Assembly: GCA_016744015.1 (NCBI GenBank)
Contig: JADGFD010000004.1
Location: 1 to 64,000, forward strand
From: Paracoccaceae bacterium
GTDB taxonomy: Bacteria > Pseudomonadota > Alphaproteobacteria > Rhodobacterales > Rhodobacteraceae
Direction of reading: 5' to 3'
DNA length: 64,000 nt
Below are positions 18,561-29,566 of the stretch, in pieces (position 1 is the first letter of the stretch; each line of letters begins with the position of its first letter). The notes beneath the pieces are model-generated. The model had not been told where the DNA came from, did no database searches, and saw only the letters and a program-made list of their open reading frames with translations. The position numbers were made by a program, and so were the translations under genes.

Positions 18561-20999
18561 ATGAAAACTCTGCCTTCCTCCAGCAAAACCGTTGTTATTG
18601 GCGGTGGAATTGTTGGCTGTTCTACGGCCTATCACCTCGCAAAAATGGGAGAGGAATGTGTGCTGCTGGAGCGCAAAAAGCTGACCTCAGGCACCACATT
18701 TCATGCGGCTGGCTTGGTGGGGCAGTTGCGCTCTAACGCCAATATCACCCAGCTTTTAGGCTATTCGGTTGAGCTTTATAACAGTATCGAGGCCGAAACC
18801 GGCCTTGGCACCGGTTGGAAAATGAATGGCGGCTTGCGGCTAGCCTGTAATGAGGAACGTTGGACCGAAGTAAAGCGGCAAGCGACCACTGCGCATTCTT
18901 TTGGGTTGCAGATGGACCTGCTCACCCCGCGAGAGGCCCAAGAATTGTGGCCGCTGATGAACGTGGATGACGTGGTCGGCGCGGCCTTTATGCCAACAGA
19001 TGGTCAGGCCAATCCGTCTGACATTACGCAGGCTTTGGCCAAGGGCGCGCGCATGGCAGGGGCGCAGGTATTTGAAGATTGCAAGGTGCTGGACCTTGAG
19101 ATTGAGAAAGGTGTTATTAAGGCCGTAATCACTTCGCTGGGCCGGGTTGAATGCGAAAAAGTGGTCGTATGTGCGGGGCAATGGACCCGCGATTTTGCCA
19201 CCCGTTTTGGCGTGAATGTGCCGCTGGTGAGCATGGAGCACCAATATATGGTGACCGAGCCAATAGCTAACATGCCCAAAAACCTGCCCACATTGCGCGA
19301 CCCCGACCGCCTGACCTATTACAAAGAAGAGGTTGGTGGCTTGGTGATGGGCGGCTATGAAAGCAACCCGATTCCGTGGGCCGTGAATGGCATTCCGAAG
19401 GGCTTTCATTACACGCTGATTGATAGCAATTTTGACCATTTCGAGCCGCTGATGGAGCTGGCTTTGGGCCGCGTGCCCGCGCTGGAAACGGCAGGCATTA
19501 AAACCCTGACCAACGGGCCAGAGAGCTTTACGCCTGACGGGAATTTCATAATCGGCGAAGCGCCTGAGCTTAGCAATTTCTTTGTCGGTGCGGGCTTTAA
19601 TGCCTTTGGCATTGCCGCTGGTGGCGGCGCGGGCATGGCGCTGGCCGAGTGGGTATCCAAAGGCGAGCCGCCGTTTGACCTTTGGTCGGCTGACATCCGG
19701 CGCTTTGGTCTGCCGCATTTTGATACCGACTGGGTGCGCACTCGCACGGTGGAAGCTTACGGCAAGCATTACACCATGGATTGGCCCTTTGAGGAAAACC
19801 AGAGCGGCCGCCCCTGTCGGAAATCGCCGCTCTATGACACCTTGAAAAACCAAGGCGCGGTGTTTGGGGAAAAGCTGGGCTGGGAGCGGCCAAACTGGTT
19901 TGCAACCGGCGGGGAAACGCCCGAGGATATCTATAGCTTTGGCCGCCAAAACTGGTTTGACGCCGTGGGCCGCGAGCATAAGGCCTGCCGCGAGGCGGCT
20001 GTTATTTTTGACCAGACATCTTTTGCCAAATTTGCGCTCAAAGGCCCCGATGCGCTGGCGGCGCTGAATTGGATCTGCGCTAATAACGTTGATAAGCCCG
20101 TGGGCGCGCTCACCTATACGCAAATGCTGAATGATGCGGGCGGGATCGAGTGCGACCTGACGCTCGCGCGCGTGGCGGAAGACGAATTTTACATTGTTAC
20201 CGGCACCGGTTTTGCCACCCATGATTTTGACTGGATCAAGCGGAATATCCCGAAGGGCGCCAACTGCCAGCTTTTTGACATCACCTCAAGCAACGCGGTG
20301 CTATCCCTGATGGGGCCGCGCGCGCGGGATATTCTTGAGCGGGTGACGCGGGCCGATATCAGCCATGAGGGCTTCCCCTTTGGCACGGTCAAAACCATCG
20401 GTATCGCGGGCTGCCAAGTGAAGGCCTTGCGGGTTACTTACGTGGGTGAGCTCGGCTGGGAGCTGCATTTGCCTGTTGAATTTGCCGATACGGTTTACGC
20501 GGCTCTGATGGAAGCGGGGGCGGAGCACGGGCTGACCAATGCGGGCTACCGCGCGATTGAAAGCTTGCGGCTGGAGAAAGGTTACCGCGCCTGGGGGGCT
20601 GATATCGGGCCTGATCACACCCCACATGAATCCGGCCTTGGCTGGGCGGTGAAACTGCGTAAAAACATGCCCTTTAAAGGGCGTGAGGCCGCCGCGACCC
20701 AAAAGGAAAAGGGCGTGAAGAAGATGATGGCCTGTTTCACTGTGCCGCCCGAAATCGTGCTGCAAGGCCGCGAAACCATTTATAGAAATGGTGAGCGCGT
20801 GGGCTGGCTCACCTCGGGCGGATTTGGCTATACCGTTAAAAAATCAATTGGTTATGGCTATGTGCGCCATGAAGACGGCGTGGACGCTGCCTTTGTGCTG
20901 AACGGTGAATACGAGCTGGAAGTGGCCACAAAGCGGGTGAAATGCAGCGCCAGCCTCACCCCGCTTTATGACCCAAAAATGGAAAAGGTTAAGGCGTGA
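18561..20999 (+). CDS. GcvT-family FAD-dependent oxidoreductase (dimethylglycine/sarcosine dehydrogenase-like)
   Basis: An 812-residue homologue of the flavoprotein at 11133-13550, with the same order: DAO domain beginning VVIGGGIVGCSTAYHLA, TFHAAGLVGQLR for the flavin region, then a GcvT half ending near LTPLYDPKMEKVKA. It probably oxidatively demethylates the imported amine and passes the carbon to folate. It is the last gene of the binding protein-ATPase-permease operon, so transport and catabolism are linked. Its 3' end overlaps the oppositely oriented serine-hydrolase gene by 34 bases. The two flavoproteins differ through most of their length, so they are old paralogues and not a recent duplication. 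Confidence 0.9.
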   Translation: MKTLPSSSKTVVIGGGIVGCSTAYHLAKMGEECVLLERKKLTSGTTFHAAGLVGQLRSNANITQLLGYSVELYNSIEAETGLGTGWKMNGGLRLACNEERWTEVKRQATTAHSFGLQMDLLTPREAQELWPLMNVDDVVGAAFMPTDGQANPSDITQALAKGARMAGAQVFEDCKVLDLEIEKGVIKAVITSLGRVECEKVVVCAGQWTRDFATRFGVNVPLVSMEHQYMVTEPIANMPKNLPTLRDPDRLTYYKEEVGGLVMGGYESNPIPWAVNGIPKGFHYTLIDSNFDHFEPLMELALGRVPALETAGIKTLTNGPESFTPDGNFIIGEAPELSNFFVGAGFNAFGIAAGGGAGMALAEWVSKGEPPFDLWSADIRRFGLPHFDTDWVRTRTVEAYGKHYTMDWPFEENQSGRPCRKSPLYDTLKNQGAVFGEKLGWERPNWFATGGETPEDIYSFGRQNWFDAVGREHKACREAAVIFDQTSFAKFALKGPDALAALNWICANNVDKPVGALTYTQMLNDAGGIECDLTLARVAEDEFYIVTGTGFATHDFDWIKRNIPKGANCQLFDITSSNAVLSLMGPRARDILERVTRADISHEGFPFGTVKTIGIAGCQVKALRVTYVGELGWELHLPVEFADTVYAALMEAGAEHGLTNAGYRAIESLRLEKGYRAWGADIGPDHTPHESGLGWAVKLRKNMPFKGREAAATQKEKGVKKMMACFTVPPEIVLQGRETIYRNGERVGWLTSGGFGYTVKKSIGYGYVRHEDGVDAAFVLNGEYELEVATKRVKCSASLTPLYDPKMEKVKA

Positions 21000-21946
21000 A
21001 CATCACGCCGAAAGCGCGCCATTTCTTCCATATTGCCCCTATGGCTGACCGCCGCGCGGTTGGTGAGGAGCACCACAATCAGCTCGCTTTTGGGATCAAG
21101 CCATAACGAGGTGCCGGTAAAGCCGGTATGCCCCACAGCCCCTGCGGGAAAATCTGGCCCGCAGCTTGCGGAATGCGCTTGTGTTTGCAGCTCAAACCCG
21201 ATGGTCCGGCCTACCGCAGGGGGCTGACTGGCAAACATTTCCGGCACGGGGTTTCGCAGCAGCCATTGCGCAAAGCGGTGCAGGTCAAGCGCAGTGGAAA
21301 ACAGCCCCGCATTGCCCGAAACTCCCCCCATGAGCCACGCGTTGCTATCATGCACGCCCCCCGGAGAGCGCCGCCCACTGGGCACAATGCAACTTGGGGC
21401 AATGCTATTTTGCAAAGGCAAAAACCCGCTTTCCAACATGCCCGAGGGCTTGGCGATATGCTCAAAAAACAGGCTTTGCAGCCTTTGACCCGAATGGGTT
21501 TCCAGCACTTTTCCCAGCAGCATATAGCCAAGGCAACTATAGGCCACGGCGCGCCCTGGCGCGGTTTCAAGTGGCACATTCAGCAGGGCTTCAAAAGTTT
21601 CCTCAGGCGTGGCGCAGGTTTCGATAAACCGCACGGTGGGCGGGAGGCCCGAGAGGTGCGCGGCGAGGTGGCGCAGCGTTACGGCTTCTTTTTTGCCGCC
21701 AGAAAAGTGAGGGAGGTAGGCTGACACTTCGCTATCAAGTGGCAGGCCAAGGGCACATAGAAGGCGGGCTGTCACCACGGGCTTGGTCAGGGATGCGACA
21801 TCAAAAACCGCGTTTTTGGGCAAGGGCCGACTGCCGTCATAGGTGCCGACAGCTTCGTGGAAAACCGTCTTTTCCCCCCGCGCCACCAGCACCTCTGCTC
21901 CATAAAATAAGCCCGTTTCGAGGGCGGATATCAGGAGCGCCTGCAT
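20966..21946 (-). CDS. AmiE/YbbE-like beta-lactamase-fold serine hydrolase
   Basis: A 326-residue class-C-like serine hydrolase. The catalytic SxxK is ASLTKP near residue 52, the YxN-equivalent is YSCLGYMLLGK near 136 (Cys where Asn is usual), and the KTG-equivalent is GHTGFTGTSLWLDP near 265. The NAWLMGGVSGNAGLFSTA stretch strongly recalls Bacillus YbbE/AmiE, an N-acetylmuramyl-L-alanine amidase encoded with murQ and murR. No signal peptide is visible, unlike the secreted Bacillus enzyme, so it should act in the cytoplasm. It is the last gene of the ABC-importer operon, three bases after the permease stop. AmiE-like amidase activity is inferred from fold plus context; a generic esterase is the alternative. 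Confidence 0.75.
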   Translation of the reverse strand: MQALLISALETGLFYGAEVLVARGEKTVFHEAVGTYDGSRPLPKNAVFDVASLTKPVVTARLLCALGLPLDSEVSAYLPHFSGGKKEAVTLRHLAAHLSGLPPTVRFIETCATPEETFEALLNVPLETAPGRAVAYSCLGYMLLGKVLETHSGQRLQSLFFEHIAKPSGMLESGFLPLQNSIAPSCIVPSGRRSPGGVHDSNAWLMGGVSGNAGLFSTALDLHRFAQWLLRNPVPEMFASQPPAVGRTIGFELQTQAHSASCGPDFPAGAVGHTGFTGTSLWLDPKSELIVVLLTNRAAVSHRGNMEEMARFRRDVHALTFSIFGS

Positions 21947-21949
21947 GGC

Positions 21950-22783
21950 TTACTTTATCGCCCCCGCCGTCATCCCCGCAATAAAGCGCTTGGATTGGAT
22001 GATAAACACGGCCACCACCGGCAGTGCGGCCAGCGTTAGCCCCGCGTAAAGCACACCAAAATTCACGCTGTATTCGCCAAAAAAGCTGGTGAGGCCCTGC
22101 GCGAGGGTTTTGTTTTCAGGGGTTTGGATAAAGATCAGCGGAAAGAAGAAATCATTCCAGATGGGCACCGCGTTATAAATGCCCGCAATCACCATGGCGG
22201 GGGTAATCAGCGGCACCATGATTTGCACCATAATCCGCAGCTCCGAGGCGCCATCTACCCGCGCGCTGTCTTCCAGCTCGCTGGGGAGGGCGCGCAGGAA
22301 CCCCGTGAGAATAAACACCGTGCTGGGCAGGCTCATGGCGGTGTAAATGAAGATCAACCCCAGCAGGTTATCCACCAAGCCCATCGCCTTGAGCTGCACA
22401 AAAAGCGGGATGATCGCAAGGCGCAGCGGCAGCATGAGGCCCGCGAGGAAAAACAGCGAAACCATGATCGAGCCGCGAAACTTGTAACGAGAGATGGCAT
22501 AGGCGGCCATGGTGCCCGTAATCAGCAGCACCGCCACTGAAATGGCGGTCACAATCGTTGAGTTCAGCAGGTAGCGCGGCACATCGGTGGTGTTCCAGAT
22601 CACTGCGTAATTGTCAAAATTCAGGCTTTTGGGCAAGGCAAAGGGTGTGCCGAAAATCTCGGCATTGGTTTTGAAGCCAGACATCACCATCATAAAAATC
22701 GGGTAAAGCACCACAAGGGCGCTGCCCCCCAAAAAGATGTGCATCAGCCATGTTTCAAAGCCCGCGTTGCGTTTCTTTTCCAT
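21950..22783 (-). CDS. Carbohydrate ABC transporter permease (MalG-like)
   Basis: A 277-residue inner-membrane permease of the CUT1 class, with six predicted spans. The EAA coupling loop is ELRIMVQIMVPLITPAMVIAG around residues 190-210, following SELEDSARVDGAS. It pairs with the MalF-like permease encoded immediately upstream (eight bases between the genes) and with the UgpC-like ATPase. Its stop lies three bases before the AmiE-like gene. Because the operon faces murQ and carries an RpiR regulator and an AmiE-like hydrolase, the likely cargo is MurNAc or a muropeptide-derived sugar. Confidence 0.92.
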   Translation of the reverse strand: MEKKRNAGFETWLMHIFLGGSALVVLYPIFMMVMSGFKTNAEIFGTPFALPKSLNFDNYAVIWNTTDVPRYLLNSTIVTAISVAVLLITGTMAAYAISRYKFRGSIMVSLFFLAGLMLPLRLAIIPLFVQLKAMGLVDNLLGLIFIYTAMSLPSTVFILTGFLRALPSELEDSARVDGASELRIMVQIMVPLITPAMVIAGIYNAVPIWNDFFFPLIFIQTPENKTLAQGLTSFFGEYSVNFGVLYAGLTLAALPVVAVFIIQSKRFIAGMTAGAIK

Positions 22784-22791
22784 TGCCGCCC

Positions 22792-23739
22792 CTAGCTCAT
22801 TTCCACTTCACGACTGGTCAAATACTTGGTCGCGATGATGGAGAAAACAAAGATGAAGATGAACATCAGCACTGCGAGGGCCGAGCCTGAGCCGAAATCG
22901 GAGCCACCCGCGCTGACAGAGCCAAAGGCCGTGCGGTAAAACAGCAGGCCAAGCATATCGGTGCTGCCTTGGGGGGAGCCCTCAAGCCCGTTCATAATAT
23001 AAGGAATTTCAAACCAGTTAAAGGAGCCGATAAACGTAAGCACCACAATAATGGTGACAGCGGGGGCCATAAGAGGCCAGATAATCTCCCGCGCGATGCG
23101 CCACTCGGAGGCGCCATCTAGCCGTGCGGCCTCGATAAAATCTTTTGGAATGCGGTGGATGGCGGCAAGGAACACCAGAGTCGGGAAGCCAAACCAGTGC
23201 CAGCTATTCACCAGCAGCATCGAGGGCAGCGCGGTTTCGGGCAGGCCGAGCCATGGCAGCGCCCAATCACTTAGCCCGACATAGTGTAGCGCTTTGTTCA
23301 CAAGGCCAAATACGGGGTTGAGGAACATTTTCCACTGGAAGCCGATGATAACAGTAGACAGGATAACCGGCACAAAAAACACCACCTGATAAAAGCGATA
23401 ACCACGCGGATTGCGCGCCAGCAAAAGCGCCAGCACCAAGGCAATGCCGTTTTGCACAATCATCAGCGAAAAAAACACCTTTACGTTGTTCCAAAAGGCA
23501 TTAAACAGCAGGGTGTTTTTGTTAGGGTTCAGCAGGATATCGGCAAAATTCTCCAAGCCGATAAATTCTTTGCGCACCAAGCCGTCCCACTCATAAAGGC
23601 TATAAAGCACAGCGCTAGCCATGGGGAGAAATACAAATACTATCAAAATAGCCGCGGGTGGGGCCAGCAAAAAAGCCAGCCATAGCTTGAGGTTACGGGC
23701 GCGGCGGCGTTTGGCGCGGGCGTAGTCAGCATCATCCAT
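22792..23739 (-). CDS. Carbohydrate ABC transporter permease (MalF-like)
   Basis: A 315-residue CUT1 permease. A basic cytoplasmic N-terminus (RAKRRRARNLK) is followed by six membrane spans, with the EAA loop EWRIAREIIWPLMAPAVTII near residue 225 after DFIEAARLDGAS. Its start overlaps the end of the ATPase gene by eight bases (23732-23739), indicating translational coupling. It forms the heterodimeric channel with the next permease. The CUT1 class typically carries di- and oligosaccharides or glycerol-phosphate compounds; the locus context points to an amino sugar or muropeptide. Confidence 0.92.
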   Translation of the reverse strand: MDDADYARAKRRRARNLKLWLAFLLAPPAAILIVFVFLPMASAVLYSLYEWDGLVRKEFIGLENFADILLNPNKNTLLFNAFWNNVKVFFSLMIVQNGIALVLALLLARNPRGYRFYQVVFFVPVILSTVIIGFQWKMFLNPVFGLVNKALHYVGLSDWALPWLGLPETALPSMLLVNSWHWFGFPTLVFLAAIHRIPKDFIEAARLDGASEWRIAREIIWPLMAPAVTIIVVLTFIGSFNWFEIPYIMNGLEGSPQGSTDMLGLLFYRTAFGSVSAGGSDFGSGSALAVLMFIFIFVFSIIATKYLTSREVEMS

Positions 23740-24826
23740 TGCGGGCGCTCACGCTTTGGCCATCGGGGCCAAACAGGTGCGATTGCGAGATTGAAAATCC
23801 GATTTCAACACGGTCTCCCACAGCGACCTGATGGTCGCCAGATACATGCACTACTATCTCTTTTTGGCTACCTGATGTGAGGTAAAGGTAAGTTTCGCCC
23901 CCCAGCCGCTCCACGGCATAGACGTCCCCGTTTAAGGTGCCATCCACCCCTTGCCCAATGCTGAAATGCTCGGGGCGCACACCAAATTCCACAGGGTCAC
24001 CCACCAAAAGCCCGCTACCTTGGCAAGGGAAAGTGATATTTGCGCCATCCGCCAGCTCTACCTCGACCGAGCCCTCAGAAAAAGCGGCCACTTGGCCTGC
24101 AAAAAAGTTCATCGCCGGAGAGCCGATGAAGCCCGCCACAAAGCGATTATTGGGAGCATTATAAAGATCAAGCGGCGCGCCGATTTGCTCCACCACACCA
24201 TCGCGCAGCACCACGATTTTGTCAGCCATGGTCATGGCTTCAATCTGGTCATGGGTTACGTAAATCATCGTCGCATTTAGTGTGCGGTGCAGCTTTGTCA
24301 GCTCAATTCGCATGGCTACGCGCAGCTTGGCGTCTAGGTTGGAAAGCGGCTCGTCAAACAGAAAAACCTTGGGGTTGCGCACGATCGCGCGGCCAATGGC
24401 CACCCGTTGCCGCTGCCCGCCCGAAAGCGCTTTTGGTTTGCGGTCGAGGTAATCCGTGAGCTGTAAAATCTCGGCGGCAGCGCGCACCTTTTTCTCTATG
24501 CTGGCTTTGCTTTCTTTGGCCACCCGCAGGGCATAGCCCATGTTTTGCCCCACGGTAAAATGCGGGTAAAGCGCGTAGCTTTGAAACACCATCGCAAGGC
24601 CGCGCGCGGCAGGAGCGAGGTGGTCTATCCGCGCATTATCAATATGAATTTCACCGGTTGTTAGCTCTTCCAGCCCCGCGATCAGCCGCAAAAGTGTTGA
24701 TTTCCCGCAGCCCGATGGCCCGACAAACACCACAAATTCGTTATCTTCCACCGTCAGGCTCACATCTTTGATGACCTTTACATCCCCAAACTGCTTGTTA
24801 ACCCCGCGCAATTTGATATTTGCCAT
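23732..24826 (-). CDS. UgpC/MalK-type ABC transporter ATP-binding protein
   Basis: A 364-residue CUT1 ATPase. Walker A GPSGCGKST near residue 37, signature LSGGQRQRVAIGRA near 135, Walker B VFLFDEPLSNLD near 156, and the switch His in YVTHDQIEA. A C-terminal TOBE/OB region (from about residue 240, GSPAMNFFAGQV onward) is present, as in MalK-type ATPases that can be shared between transporters. It sits between the binding-protein gene (62-base gap containing a strong hairpin) and the MalF-like permease (eight-base overlap). It energises the proposed MurNAc-type importer. Confidence 0.94.
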   Translation of the reverse strand: MANIKLRGVNKQFGDVKVIKDVSLTVEDNEFVVFVGPSGCGKSTLLRLIAGLEELTTGEIHIDNARIDHLAPAARGLAMVFQSYALYPHFTVGQNMGYALRVAKESKASIEKKVRAAAEILQLTDYLDRKPKALSGGQRQRVAIGRAIVRNPKVFLFDEPLSNLDAKLRVAMRIELTKLHRTLNATMIYVTHDQIEAMTMADKIVVLRDGVVEQIGAPLDLYNAPNNRFVAGFIGSPAMNFFAGQVAAFSEGSVEVELADGANITFPCQGSGLLVGDPVEFGVRPEHFSIGQGVDGTLNGDVYAVERLGGETYLYLTSGSQKEIVVHVSGDHQVAVGDRVEIGFSISQSHLFGPDGQSVSARNG

Positions 24827-24851
24827 GCTGCACCTGCCTTAAGGATATAGA

Positions 24852-24883
24852 ATAACCGGGGCGCTGGAGGGCGCCCCGGTTAT
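24852..24883 (-). promoter_or_regulatory. Strong intercistronic hairpin after the binding-protein gene
   Basis: A perfect 13-bp inverted repeat (ATAACCGGGGCGC and its complement) with a 6-base loop starts six bases after the binding-protein stop and lies before the ATPase gene. There is no T-run, so it is unlikely to be a full terminator. By analogy with ABC operons such as malE-malF it probably protects the upstream message and lowers downstream expression, making the binding protein more abundant than the rest. Confidence 0.7.
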
Positions 24884-24888
24884 GTGTG

Positions 24889-26103
24889 TTACTCTGCCGC
24901 TGCGATGCCCGCTGCCACGTCGGCCGCCACTTCGCTGGCGGTTTTAGAACCGGTCATCAGCTGTTGCAAGCCGTCTTGCAACAAGGTGGAGCCGGTTGGT
25001 TTATCAAACCGGAAGGCCACCAGCATGATGTAGGGCGTAGCGGCGGAATGGAAACTCGACACCTGTTGCAGCGTTGCATCCGAGGACACAGCCCCATCAA
25101 CCGCTGCGATATTGTTAAGCTTATCCGTTAGCATTTGTGCAAACGGCGTGGTGGCGGTGAAGCGAATAAACTCTAGCGCGGCGTCTTTATTTGCGCTCGC
25201 GGCGTTTACCCCGTAGCCACCATCCATCCATGTGGCGACCATGCGCTCGCCACCCGCATCGGCTGCCGGGCCGGGCATGATCCCGAAATTTACGCCTTCA
25301 TCACGAAAGCCGTTGATCTCCCAAGAGCCACCCACAAACATCGCGGCAGCACCCGAGGTAAACAGGGCCTTCATGGTGGCATAATCAACGCCCTCAAAGC
25401 CGACGGGCATGTAAGGCGCAAGCTCGGCCATTTTACCAAGGGCGGCTACATAACGCTCATCGTCAAAGGTTGTGGCACCGGAGGTGACCTCACCAAAGAA
25501 GCTGGATCCGTAGAAATTAGGCATAAACGCACCTGACATCACTTCAATCGTCCAGCCATCGGCGGTGCCATTGGCGAGCGGCGTAATGCCGGCAGCCTTA
25601 AGCTGCTCGGATACCGCGAGGAAGTCATCCCATGTTTCAGGCGGGTTAATGCCTTGGGCTTCAAAAATATCGCTGTTATAATAAACCAGCACGGTTTGCG
25701 AGGCAAAGGGCACAGCATAAACCTTGCCATCGGCGCGCAGGGTGGTGCCGAGTAGCTCATCAGCGCTGAGCAGGGAAAGGTCAACCTGCCCGCCCAGCGG
25801 CTCCAGATAGCCAGCACTGGAGATATTTTCCAAGCTGCCATAAGCGCGGGTGTGAATGATATCAGGGCCGGAGCCACCCGCCAAAGCCGTGGTCAGAATG
25901 GTATTATAGGCCTTGGCCTCATGGGCGGTATAGGTCACCGAAATTTCGGGGTGCTCGGCCTCAAAGGCCTCAATAATTTCACCATAGGCTGCCACATCTT
26001 CCTGCCGCCAACTCCAGAAGCTGAGCTCGGTTTGCGCAAATGCGGGTGCGGCGATCGAAAGTGCCGTAGCGGCGATGACCGCCTTTTTTAAGTTGGTTTT
26101 CAT
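24889..26103 (-). CDS. Extracellular sugar-binding protein of ABC transporter (family 1)
   Basis: A 404-residue periplasmic solute-binding protein. The signal peptide MKTNLKKAVIAATALSIAAP ends near AFAQ at residue 24. The mature part opens TELSFWSWRQEDVAAYGEII and carries the family-1 pattern GGSGPDIIHTRAYG near residue 75. It is the first gene of a five-gene operon (binding protein, ATPase, two permeases, AmiE-like hydrolase) whose promoter region holds a perfect TTGACA and a copy of the GGAAT-type motif also present before murQ. The ligand is inferred to be MurNAc or a MurNAc-containing fragment; nothing in the sequence alone fixes it. Confidence 0.92.
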   Translation of the reverse strand: MKTNLKKAVIAATALSIAAPAFAQTELSFWSWRQEDVAAYGEIIEAFEAEHPEISVTYTAHEAKAYNTILTTALAGGSGPDIIHTRAYGSLENISSAGYLEPLGGQVDLSLLSADELLGTTLRADGKVYAVPFASQTVLVYYNSDIFEAQGINPPETWDDFLAVSEQLKAAGITPLANGTADGWTIEVMSGAFMPNFYGSSFFGEVTSGATTFDDERYVAALGKMAELAPYMPVGFEGVDYATMKALFTSGAAAMFVGGSWEINGFRDEGVNFGIMPGPAADAGGERMVATWMDGGYGVNAASANKDAALEFIRFTATTPFAQMLTDKLNNIAAVDGAVSSDATLQQVSSFHSAATPYIMLVAFRFDKPTGSTLLQDGLQQLMTGSKTASEVAADVAAGIAAAE

Positions 26104-26184
26104 GATCTTTTCTCCCTAAAGAACAGTTTTTTTGCCTTAGGGCTGGTAAAAAGGACTCGTCTACCCACCCTGTCTCCACTCTCA

Positions 26185-26198
26185 GGAATTTAATATTC
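26185..26198 (+). promoter_or_regulatory. Operator-like GGAAT...ATTC site before the ABC operon
   Basis: GGAATTTAATATTC overlaps the expected -10 region of the minus-strand promoter, whose -35 is a perfect TTGACA at 26216-26211 (17 bases away). The same motif occurs twice in the murR-murQ gap. It is the likely binding site of the neighbouring RpiR regulator; inferred from repetition and position. Confidence 0.6.
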
Positions 26199-26226
26199 TT
26201 ATCTTGGATGTGTCAATAATTATTTA

Positions 26227-27063
26227 TTACCCAATCCGGCGCACCAGATCGTGGCTGTCAGTAATACGAGCGGCCACATCGCCCTGGCCTTGCACAAAGA
26301 GCACAAATAACAGATCAGTAATCGCCATTTGCGCGGTGCGGGTGGCAATTGAGGAGCTGCGGACGATGTTTTCATCGGCCACACAGTGCAACACCACATC
26401 GGGCGCAGGGGCCTGATGATATGCGCCAATATGCAACACCGGAATGCCGACCGCTTGGGCAAATTCCACCGCGACCTGCACCTCGCGTGTGGTGCCGGAA
26501 TAGGAGATCGAGATCAGCAGATCGCCTGCACCAAAGCTCGACAGGTTAGCGAGCTGGATGTGGCTGTCACCCCCCGCAATCACCGCTTTCCCGAATTTTG
26601 CCAGCTTAGAGGACAGGTCTTGTGCCACAAGGGCCGAGCCACCTACACCCAGAATCAAAATCCTATTGGCGGCACTTATCTGGCACACGGCGGCATCCAG
26701 CATGGCGTTGGGATTGGCTTTCATGGTTTCGGAGAGGGCTGCAATTTTGCTGGCAAACAGTTTTTTGGCCACCGCCCCCAGCGTATCATCACTAAAAATG
26801 CCCGCATGAATCTGCTGCGCATTTTCACTGCGCGCGGTTTCGGCACTTAGCGCAATTTTGAGCGCCGGAAAGCCCGGAAACCCAACCTTTTGGCAAAACT
26901 TGATAATGCTCGACTGGCTCACATTGCAGCGCGTTGCCAGCGCTTGCGAAGACAAGCCTACAACCTCCTGCGGGGTATCCAAAATCACCTCGGCAATCGC
27001 GCGCTCATTGGCAGACATGCCCTCCAGCCGCGCATTTAAGCTGGTTATCAAATTTGTGCTCAT
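26227..27063 (-). CDS. MurR/RpiR-family transcriptional regulator
   Basis: A 278-residue RpiR-type regulator. N-terminal HTH_6 domain (residues 1-75; MSANERAIAEVILDTPQEVV, NVSQSSIIKFCQKVGF) and a C-terminal SIS domain (ILILGVGGSALVAQDLSSKL near residue 130; SYSGTTREV near 175) that senses a phosphosugar. E. coli MurR binds MurNAc-6-phosphate, the murQ substrate. Here the gene diverges from murQ and precedes the ABC operon, both carrying the same GGAAT-type motif. The ATG at 27063 is preferred over a start nine codons upstream. Repression of both units with MurNAc-6-P as inducer is the simplest model. Confidence 0.88.
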   Translation of the reverse strand: MSTNLITSLNARLEGMSANERAIAEVILDTPQEVVGLSSQALATRCNVSQSSIIKFCQKVGFPGFPALKIALSAETARSENAQQIHAGIFSDDTLGAVAKKLFASKIAALSETMKANPNAMLDAAVCQISAANRILILGVGGSALVAQDLSSKLAKFGKAVIAGGDSHIQLANLSSFGAGDLLISISYSGTTREVQVAVEFAQAVGIPVLHIGAYHQAPAPDVVLHCVADENIVRSSSIATRTAQMAITDLLFVLFVQGQGDVAARITDSHDLVRRIG

Positions 27064-27091
27064 CACGCTTGCCTTTGCAAAACAACCCACA

Positions 27092-27105
27092 GGAATATTA
27101 TATTA
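27092..27105 (+). promoter_or_regulatory. Operator-like site 1 in the murR-murQ gap
   Basis: GGAATATTATATTA, 32 bases (about three helical turns) upstream of a second copy of the motif. It overlaps a TATAAT on the minus strand (27102-27097) that could serve murR, so a bound regulator would block its own promoter. Confidence 0.5.
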
Positions 27106-27135
27106 TTGACCTTCACTGAATTTGGAATATATAAT
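27106..27135 (+). promoter_or_regulatory. Promoter of murQ, predicted leaderless
   Basis: TTGACC (27106-27111), an 18-base spacer and a perfect TATAAT (27130-27135). Transcription would start about six or seven bases further on, essentially at the murQ ATG (27142), and no Shine-Dalgarno sequence precedes that ATG. A leaderless message is therefore predicted. Confidence 0.7.
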
Positions 27136-27138
27136 TCC
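27124..27138 (+). promoter_or_regulatory. Operator-like site 2 over the murQ -10 box
   Basis: GGAATATATAATTCC has GGAAT/ATTCC palindromic arms around a 5-base centre. It covers the TATAAT of the murQ promoter completely, which is an ideal repressor position. Together with 27092 and 26185 it defines a GGAAT-N5-ATTCC-type consensus. Confidence 0.6.
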
Positions 27139-27141
27139 CTC

Positions 27142-28089
27142 ATGACTGATACCGCAAATGCTGATCTTATTCAACTCGCACGCTCCCTGCAAAGCCTAGA
27201 TTCTGAAAAGGCCCATGCGGAGTCCGAGCAGTTGGACACCCTCTCTCCCCTTGAAATTGCGGCTTTAATGAACCGTGAAGACCAAAAAGTGGCCATAGCG
27301 GTGCAAAAGGTTTTGCCTGATATTGCCCGCACCATTGAAGCGGCGACCAAAGCACTGCGCAGAGGCGGGCGGGTAATTTATATCGGCGCGGGCACTAGCG
27401 GGCGGCTTGGCGTGCTGGATGCAGCCGAAGTGCCACCCACGTTTTCGGCCCCGCCTGATATGATTATCGGCCTGATCGCTGGCGGCGAAGCGGCTATGTT
27501 TCAGGCACAAGAGGGCATAGAGGATGACGCGGCTCAAGGGGCAGAGGATTTGCGGAATATTGCGCTTGCGGAACGTGATTTTGTGGTCGGTCTTGCCGCC
27601 TCTGGGCGCACGCCTTATGTGCTGGGGGCCCTTGGCTATGCTACGCAAATAGGCGTGCAAACCGCGGGGATTTCCTGCAATGCCAAAAGCCCGCTGGCGC
27701 AGCTGAGCGGCATTGCCATCACGCCAATAGTGGGCCCCGAAATCCTGTCCGGCTCCACACGGCTTAAATCTGGCACTGCGCAAAAGCAAATCTTGAATAT
27801 GATTTCGACCGGAGCCATGGTGCGCATAGGAAAGTGCTATGGCAACCGCATGGTGGACCTGAATGCCTCCAACAAAAAGCTGAAAGCCCGCGCTGTAAAT
27901 CTGGTGGCTGGCCTCACAAGCTGCACAAGCTCGGCGGCGCTACAGGCTCTTCTGGCCACGAAGTGGAACATCAAACCCGCCATTTTAATGCTCACAAGCA
28001 AGGATGCAATCGACGCGGAAAAAGCTATTGACCGGGTGGATGCCGCCAAGGGCCATCTCAGGAAAGCGATAGAAAACCTGCGCAGCTAA
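27142..28089 (+). CDS. murQ: N-acetylmuramic acid 6-phosphate etherase
   Basis: A 315-residue MurQ, which removes the D-lactyl ether of MurNAc-6-phosphate to give GlcNAc-6-phosphate. The SIS domain carries IYIGAGTSGRLGVLDAAEVP near residue 73 with the catalytic Glu region, GGEAAMFQAQEGIEDD with the second acidic site, and LAASGRTPYVLGAL. The C-terminus (VNLVAGLTSCTSSAALQALL) is the helical MurQ tail. The ATG at 27142 coincides with the predicted transcript start. It diverges from murR and overlaps the FliJ-like gene by four bases tail to tail. No MurNAc or anhydroMurNAc kinase gene is in the window, though an ABC importer would deliver unphosphorylated sugar. Confidence 0.94.
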   Translation: MTDTANADLIQLARSLQSLDSEKAHAESEQLDTLSPLEIAALMNREDQKVAIAVQKVLPDIARTIEAATKALRRGGRVIYIGAGTSGRLGVLDAAEVPPTFSAPPDMIIGLIAGGEAAMFQAQEGIEDDAAQGAEDLRNIALAERDFVVGLAASGRTPYVLGALGYATQIGVQTAGISCNAKSPLAQLSGIAITPIVGPEILSGSTRLKSGTAQKQILNMISTGAMVRIGKCYGNRMVDLNASNKKLKARAVNLVAGLTSCTSSAALQALLATKWNIKPAILMLTSKDAIDAEKAIDRVDAAKGHLRKAIENLRS

Positions 28090-28478
28090 CGGTCAGGCGC
28101 GCGGCCTTCTTCCTCGGCTTTGCGGCGGCTGTGGAGCAGCTCCTGATACTCGGCTTTTTCCAGCATATCCTTGATAACGCGGGTTTTGGCGTCAGAAATA
28201 GCGGCAAAACTGCGCGCAGATTCCGCCTGCTGCTCCTGAATATTACGGCGCATGGCAAGGCGGCTGTTTTCCTGGTCTGCCCAGCCCAGCCAGCGCGAAA
28301 TTATGGCCAGGTCTTCGGGCGGGGCATCTTCCAGATTGTCGCTCACCTCAGCCGCCAGCGCCGCCATTTGCGTGGCGGTGAGCGCAGTGGCCGCGTTGGC
28401 ACGGGTCAACTCGGCCATGTCTTTCAGCCGCTTTTGCTCGGCAAGATCATGCAAGATTTTCAGCTCGGCCGGGGTCAT
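28086..28478 (-). CDS. Small flagellar-cluster protein, possibly FliJ-like
   Basis: A 130-residue highly charged, almost wholly alpha-helical protein with long heptad-like stretches (AELKILHDLAEQKRLKDMAE; RRNIQEQQAESARSF). It has no signal peptide or membrane span. It overlaps the flhB stop by four bases (ATGA), so it is translated with the flagellar export genes. Size, helical content and position suggest a FliJ-type export chaperone or other flagellar accessory protein, but I see no diagnostic motif. Its 3' end overlaps murQ. Confidence 0.65.
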   Translation of the reverse strand: MTPAELKILHDLAEQKRLKDMAELTRANAATALTATQMAALAAEVSDNLEDAPPEDLAIISRWLGWADQENSRLAMRRNIQEQQAESARSFAAISDAKTRVIKDMLEKAEYQELLHSRRKAEEEGRAPDR

Positions 28479-29566
28479 GCGTTGCGCTCCTTGGCTTTGG
28501 CGCGCATCTCGGTGGCAAACCGGATGGCGGCCGCAATGGCGCGGTAATGCTCTGGGTCGATCTCGTGGCCGATTTCCACGGTGGCATGCAGCGCACGCGC
28601 GGTGGGCGGGTCGGAGTGAATGGGCACGCCAGAATCGGCTGCGACCTCACGAATGCGCCGTGCCACGTCATCTACCCCTTTGGCGATAACCACCGGCGCG
28701 GTGCCCGGTGTGCGCGCCCATTCCAGCGCCACGGCGTAATGAGTCGGATTTACGATGATCACATCGGCGCGGGGCACGTCATGCAGCATTTGATTGGTGG
28801 CAATTTCCTGCGCCCGCTGGCGGCGCTTGCCTTTCATGTGAGGGTCACCCTCGCTCTCTTTGCTTTCGTCCTGAAGCTCTTTGTGAGACATCCGGAGCTT
28901 TTGCAGGTGGTGGTATTTTTGCCAGAGAAAATCGACCAAGGCGATAAGCATGGCGATGGTCATCACAATCAGCAGCATCGAGGTGAGGATTTCGCCAAGC
29001 GCGAGCGCGACCTCGGCGGGGCCAGCATGCACCATACCCAAAATCTCGTCCTTTTTGCCGCGGAGCAGCAGATAAACACCCGTGGCCACTAGCATCATTT
29101 TACTAACGGTTTTCAGAAACTCCACAATGCCCTTGGTGCCGAATTTGTTTTTAAAACCCTGAAGCGGGGATATCCGGTTGCCCTTGGGTTTGATCTTGCT
29201 TGGGGCAAATACAAAAATCCGCTGGGCGAGCGAGACCAAAAGGGCCGCTGTAAACGGCAGTAAAAAGATGGGGATGAGCGCCACAAGCGCCTGCCCGAAA
29301 AGCTGTGCGGCCATGCCTGTGCCGCCCTTAGAAAGCAAGCTGCGGCTGAGGGTGTCGGCATTGGCAAACACCTGCGCCAGCACCTCAGCGCTTTTGGCGA
29401 TACCGTCGAGACCCACAAAGGTGAGCGCCACAAATAACCCGACATAACCCGCCGCAGCGGATACATCCATCGAGCGGGCGATATCTCCCTTTTTGCGGGA
29501 TTTCTCGATTTTCTGTTGGGAGGCGTCATGTGACTTTTCGCCTGATTCCTCGCCGCCCTCACTCAT
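28475..29566 (-). CDS. flhB: Flagellar type III export protein FlhB
   Basis: A 363-residue export-apparatus switch protein. The N-terminal cytosolic tail (KSHDASQQKIEKSRKKGDI) precedes four membrane spans. The C-terminal domain holds the autocleavage NPTH site in VIIVNPTHYAVALEW near residue 275, which switches export from rod/hook to filament substrates. It overlaps fliR upstream (ATGA, 29563-29566) and the small helical gene downstream. Part of the flhA-fliR-flhB block in the minus orientation. Confidence 0.96.
   Translation of the reverse strand: MSEGGEESGEKSHDASQQKIEKSRKKGDIARSMDVSAAAGYVGLFVALTFVGLDGIAKSAEVLAQVFANADTLSRSLLSKGGTGMAAQLFGQALVALIPIFLLPFTAALLVSLAQRIFVFAPSKIKPKGNRISPLQGFKNKFGTKGIVEFLKTVSKMMLVATGVYLLLRGKKDEILGMVHAGPAEVALALGEILTSMLLIVMTIAMLIALVDFLWQKYHHLQKLRMSHKELQDESKESEGDPHMKGKRRQRAQEIATNQMLHDVPRADVIIVNPTHYAVALEWARTPGTAPVVIAKGVDDVARRIREVAADSGVPIHSDPPTARALHATVEIGHEIDPEHYRAIAAAIRFATEMRAKAKERNA

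Follow-up and report, generated by a model that had tools for sequence, protein, structure and literature searches.

A probable palindromic operator shared by murQ, a MurR-type regulator gene and an ABC sugar transporter operon in a Paracoccaceae bacterium

The DNA analysed here, called the window, is a 64 kb stretch of contig JADGFD010000004.1 from the Paracoccaceae bacterium assembly GCA_016744015.1, a genome of 3.14 Mb. It contains a murQ gene, a regulator gene (murR) that is divergent from it, and an ABC transporter operon that lies downstream of murR on the same strand. The genes are:

27142..28089, plus strand: murQ, MurNAc-6-phosphate etherase, 315 aa (TIGR00274, 380.8 bits, cut-off 302)
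26227..27063, minus strand: murR, MurR-type regulator of the RpiR family, 278 aa, with an N-terminal HTH_6 domain (Pfam, 2e-23) and a C-terminal SIS domain (5e-15)
24889..26103, minus strand: ABC transporter sugar-binding protein (PF01547, PF13416)
23732..24826, minus strand: ABC transporter ATPase, MalK/UgpC type (NF008653, 471.7 bits, cut-off 432)
22792..23739, minus strand: ABC permease 1 (PF00528)
21950..22783, minus strand: ABC permease 2 (PF00528)
20966..21946, minus strand: serine hydrolase with a beta-lactamase fold, final gene of the ABC operon (PF00144, 4e-48)

The sugar-binding protein has weak NCBIfam matches that include NgcE-type and CPR_0540-type binding proteins. For the serine hydrolase the nearest NCBIfam model is PBP4B (YfeW; PRK03642, 8e-25), with a score below the cut-off of that model. 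No murP-like gene was seen at the murR-murQ-ABC locus, and an Rfam search of positions 20000-28500 gave no matches.

The locus was compared with six orthologs from other genomes, which gives seven loci in total. By identity of the MurR protein, these orthologs come from three genomes of the same genus (94, 89 and 88%), a MAG labelled as Hyphomicrobiales (87%), an Albidovulum MAG (76%) and an alphaproteobacterial MAG (67%). The presence of an 87% identical copy in the Hyphomicrobiales-labelled MAG (L077) makes transfer or mislabelling possible. The distribution of the locus (20966-28089) is patchy, with a MurR ortholog in only three of 12 other same-genus genomes searched. Among 385 sampled genomes of the class there was no close MurR ortholog besides the window's own, only RpiR proteins of about 30% identity, and the viral contigs searched contained no MurR ortholog.

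In the two intergenic regions flanking murR there are four sites of one palindromic form, GGAAT-N5-ATTCC, together with two outward-facing promoters:

26185..26199, no strand: operator O1, GGAATTTAATATTCT, one mismatch, over the -10 of the ABC-operon promoter (24.1 bits, top match in 64 kb; seven of seven loci)
26216..26230, no strand: weak operator O1', ATAATTATTTATTAC (18.2 bits, fourth in 64 kb; same place in seven of seven loci)
27092..27106, no strand: operator O2, GGAATATTATATTAT, two mismatches in one half-site (22.5 bits)
27124..27138, no strand: operator O3, GGAATATATAATTCC, perfect, over the murQ -10 (23.8 bits; seven of seven loci)
26187..26216, minus strand: ABC-operon promoter, TTGACA-18-TAAATT (consensus scan 10/12; TTGACA in seven of seven loci)
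27106..27135, plus strand: murQ promoter, TTGACC-18-TATAAT (consensus scan 11/12)

An earlier note on this DNA had reported the motif at 26185, 27092 and 27124, and all three occurrences are found there. The perfect TTGACA that it described beside the first occupies 26216-26211 of the minus strand, and the TAAATT of the same promoter is inside O1; the other two sites are, as it said, 32 bases apart in the murR-murQ gap, the second covering a TATAAT at 27130-27135. This TATAAT is the murQ -10, separated by 18 nt from the TTGACC at 27106-27111. The weak half of O2 reads ATTAT in place of ATTCC; this site overlies the murR -10 (TATAAT, 27102-27097 on the minus strand, directed toward murR) and abuts the murQ -35. 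A clear conserved -35 for murR was not seen. What the earlier note overlooked is O1', as well as the tie to the known E. coli operator described below. On the minus strand O1' reads GTAATAAATAATTAT, with the TGACA of the ABC promoter -35 coming immediately after, and it overlaps the murR stop codon. The murQ -35 has O2 at the corresponding place (GGAATATTATATTAT-TGACC). The two outward promoters are thus built alike, with a weaker site at the -35 (O2 and O1') and a stronger one over the -10 (O3 and O1). The O2-O3 pair has a 15-17-15 geometry and covers 47 bp (27092-27138), while the offset between O1 and O1' is 30 or 31 bp across the loci, so that this pair spans 45-46 bp.

The murQ ATG lies 3 nt past O3 and about 7 nt past the TATAAT, and the murQ message is therefore predicted to be leaderless, with transcription probably starting at or beside the ATG. 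The distance from operator to ATG is 3 nt in most of the orthologous loci and 4 nt in one of them (L078). In the leader of the binding-protein gene (26101-26184) a hairpin of 10 pairs with a T-rich loop could form in the five closest loci. As a conserved RNA element this hairpin was rejected: no pair has changed on both sides, so covariation gives it no support, and the leader has diverged in the remaining loci L078 and L079.

Counting the motif does not by itself say much. The bare pattern GGAAT-N5-ATTCC with two mismatches allowed is found 24 times in the 64 kb, against 32 expected, which is no enrichment; the count alone is therefore no evidence, and it is the quality of the sites and their position that carry the case. 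A position matrix trained solely on the six other loci and then run over the 64 kb window puts O1 (24.1 bits), O3 (23.8) and O2 (22.5) in the first three ranks and O1' (18.2) in the fourth, with the next match at 8.8 bits. Across 60 dinucleotide-shuffled versions of the window the best score was 18.9, below those of the three sites, and in 5000 shuffles of each gap none reached the best real score of that gap. Genome-wide, where patterns were used in place of the matrix, a tighter version (at most one mismatch in 3.14 Mb) gives eight places, three of them at the murR-murQ-ABC locus. None of the remaining five is at a promoter: four fall in reading frames and one between the ends of convergent genes, and a wider regulon in this genome was rejected on these grounds.

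One could argue that these are promoter elements rich in AT (-10 boxes or UP elements) which are palindromic in looks only. Every site does overlap a promoter hexamer or sit in AT-rich DNA, and the gaps have 36-37% GC compared with 55.7% in the window. However, the GGAAT and ATTCC flanks are not part of any promoter consensus, the shuffles of these same AT-rich gaps never produced a site as good as the best one, and the spacing and the order of strong and weak sites have been kept in seven loci. We regard this as the least credible of the explanations considered here, though for the weak site O1' the doubt is real. When each locus is scored with a matrix from which its own species was left out, the place of O1' is in every one of the seven the best or second-best site near the ABC promoter, and its score is reached in 0.1 to 1.1% of resamplings of the same AT-rich stretch, depending on the species. 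O1' is thus a predicted, weak binding site of the regulator.

All six orthologous loci keep the three sites, over the ABC -10, in the murR -10 region and over the murQ -10, so the motif is conserved in orthologous gaps, which the earlier note had put forward as the way to check its proposal. The offset between O2 and O3 is 32 bp in six of the seven loci and 33 bp in one, despite a diverged spacer, and in every locus it is the same half of O2 that is weak. In two relatives, a further MurR-like site (23.2 and 18.5 bits) is found between an ABC operon and a gene for a GntR/UTRA regulator that is accompanied by a GH20 gene; the site positions at this GntR/GH20/ABC operon are 1827-1841 in L093, 1371-1385 in L094 and 1371-1385 in L095. 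The window's own genome has AGAATAAAACCTTCC at this place, with 7.2 bits, an apparently decayed site. In a distant alphaproteobacterium (G130, loci L068 / L089), an RpiR gene on a long tree branch adjoins a 44% identical murQ, and no recognisable site was seen upstream of that murQ.

The same word reaches beyond the alphaproteobacteria. The murR-murQ gap of E. coli K-12 contains AGACTCAATGATTCC and GGGATATATGATTCC, 32 bp apart, and none of 20000 shuffles of that gap gave an equally good pair at that exact distance. Adjacent inverted repeats spaced by 17 bp over divergent promoters are thus found in E. coli K-12 as well as in six of the seven loci. The word also occurs in most of the other gammaproteobacterial gaps of the murR type that were examined, as GGAATATATTATTCC, AGAATAAATTATTCC, GGAATAAATAATTAT, TGAATAAAATATTCA and AGAATATATGATTCC, with shuffle P values from 0/2000 to 0.003; adjacency to murQ is confirmed for L083-L086, not for L081 or L082. 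In the gaps of L083 and L084 no partner site was seen at 32 bp, and in L082 no site was found in the 260 bp searched.

Which protein would use these sites? The regulator matches the effector domain of EcMurR in the PDB with 1e-27. On the NCBIfam MurR equivalog model (NF012026) it scores 168.7 bits, below the cut-off of 408, and on a YfhH-type model it scores 220 bits, above its MurR score yet below the cut-off of 355. The tree gives strong support to its clade and places it within the large branch that also holds EcMurR and YfhH, without a settled order inside that branch. Given scores under the MurR cut-off and a tree that does not settle the tie to EcMurR, the protein is called MurR-type. 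Its recognition helix SQSSIIKFCQKVG matches that of EcMurR (SQSSIVKFAQKLG) and of other MurR proteins linked to murQ, and differs from that of other alphaproteobacterial RpiR proteins, for example SQPTVVRFCRSIG. In the effector segment, RSSSIATRTAQ aligns with RSSSMSTRTAQ of EcMurR, and the form RSSSxxTRTAQ is absent from YfhH, NanR and RccR. Like MurR, the regulator is encoded divergently from murQ (26227-27063 on the minus strand, 27142-28089 on the plus strand). The genome contains only one other RpiR-type HTH gene, on contig C14, adjoining another kind of transporter.

It is conceivable that this second RpiR protein, or one of GntR type, uses the sites instead, since related words are used by other RpiR proteins; as an example, the alphaproteobacterial IolR motif is GGAA-N6-TTCC (PMC2597717). 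However, the spacing in IolR is one base shorter than that of the window sites, which are GGAA-N7-TTCC and stand beside murQ, the family of sites is found with murR-murQ in gammaproteobacteria too, and the transporter next to the sole other RpiR gene is of a different type. A different regulator is thus very improbable. The suggestion of the earlier note that one regulator, most simply the RpiR protein, is common to the three promoters gains support from the conservation of the sites, the word shared with E. coli and other gammaproteobacteria, the shared helix, and the single alternative RpiR HTH gene.

It is very likely, in our judgement, that a MurR-type protein represses murQ, murR and the ABC operon that ends in the PBP4B-like hydrolase, and that MurNAc-6-phosphate relieves this repression. 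MurNAc-6-phosphate is the established ligand of E. coli MurR. A repressor dimer would sit on each 15-bp palindrome. A tetramer would most likely bridge O2 and O3, as proposed for EcMurR, and so shut the murQ and murR promoters together, and the second strong/weak pair, O1 and O1', would shut the promoter of the ABC operon. As MurNAc-6-phosphate builds up it would loosen the repressor, so that importer, etherase and repressor would be induced together. The ABC substrate would be MurNAc or a MurNAc-containing fragment, and the ABC operon probably substitutes for MurP, the importer of PTS type.

An ABC importer leaves its sugar unphosphorylated, and this route would therefore need a separate kinase. 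In L077 the ABC operon runs on into a gene for a BadF-type kinase, and in L078 it is followed by an amidohydrolase gene, read by eye as nagA. AnmK is absent from the window's genome. The only BadF-type kinase of this genome (contig C49, 49686-50573; L088, 7687-8574) is found beside an oligopeptide-type ABC operon and is a candidate MurNAc kinase; no MurR site was found by it on contig C49. A wider reading can be offered more tentatively, and with some doubt on our part: a non-PTS route for MurNAc (ABC import, a separate BadF-type kinase, MurQ) under two tandem strong/weak pairs, with a repressor that might bridge the pairs about 0.9 kb apart and, in some relatives, a chitin-sugar operon as a further target.

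The signal or the sugar may also be something other than MurNAc, even with MurR bound to the sites, for example GlcNAc-6-phosphate as effector and a disaccharide or muropeptide as ABC substrate. This would fit the similarity of the binding protein to models that include NgcE (GlcNAc/diacetylchitobiose), far under the cut-off, as well as the MurR-like site at the GH20/GntR/ABC operon of two relatives, and the lack of AnmK with the only BadF kinase located elsewhere, beside the oligopeptide-type operon. However, the substrate of MurQ is MurNAc-6-phosphate, and RSSSxxTRTAQ agrees with EcMurR, not with NanR, RccR or YfhH. We consider a different sugar or signal unlikely and prefer relief by MurNAc-6-phosphate.

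As gene regulation goes, this is a clear but fairly ordinary local case. It adds the ABC operon as a target and includes a fourth, weak site. Through the shared operator, an ABC sugar importer that had no assigned role becomes linked to the catabolism of cell-wall sugars, which offers a testable non-PTS MurNAc route in Rhodobacteraceae-type bacteria; in the open-licence papers searched, no account of ABC import of MurNAc under MurR was found for this group. Moreover, the MurR operator word has been kept, with its spacing of 32 bp, between alpha- and gammaproteobacteria.

The closest known system is MurR of E. coli, for which MurNAc-6-phosphate is the ligand and bridging by a tetramer has been proposed, across two sites with 17 bp between them that together take up 47 bp and overlap -35 and -10 boxes (PMC12713135, a 2025 preprint). 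Both systems have divergent murR and murQ genes, two 15-bp sites 17 bp apart within 47 bp, and the same recognition helix and effector segment in the regulator; as in the E. coli murQ-murP-yfeW arrangement, the regulated operon of the window also ends in a PBP4B-type gene. In contrast to E. coli, the sites of the window deviate much less from a perfect palindrome, the place of the PTS gene murP is taken by an ABC operon that has an operator pair of its own, and the regulator scores below the NCBIfam MurR cut-off. IolR is likewise an RpiR protein with a similar half-site, acting at multiple promoters within a single pathway, among them that of an ABC operon, but its spacing is one base shorter and it belongs to inositol genes at another locus (PMC2597717). 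NanR of Streptococcus pneumoniae and Vibrio vulnificus shares the RpiR family, a phosphosugar effector, a tetramer model and several sites per cluster; it differs in its operator word (SpNanR consensus TCTGAAACTACTTTCAAA) and in its sialic acid genes, and SpNanR is an activator (PMC12713135).
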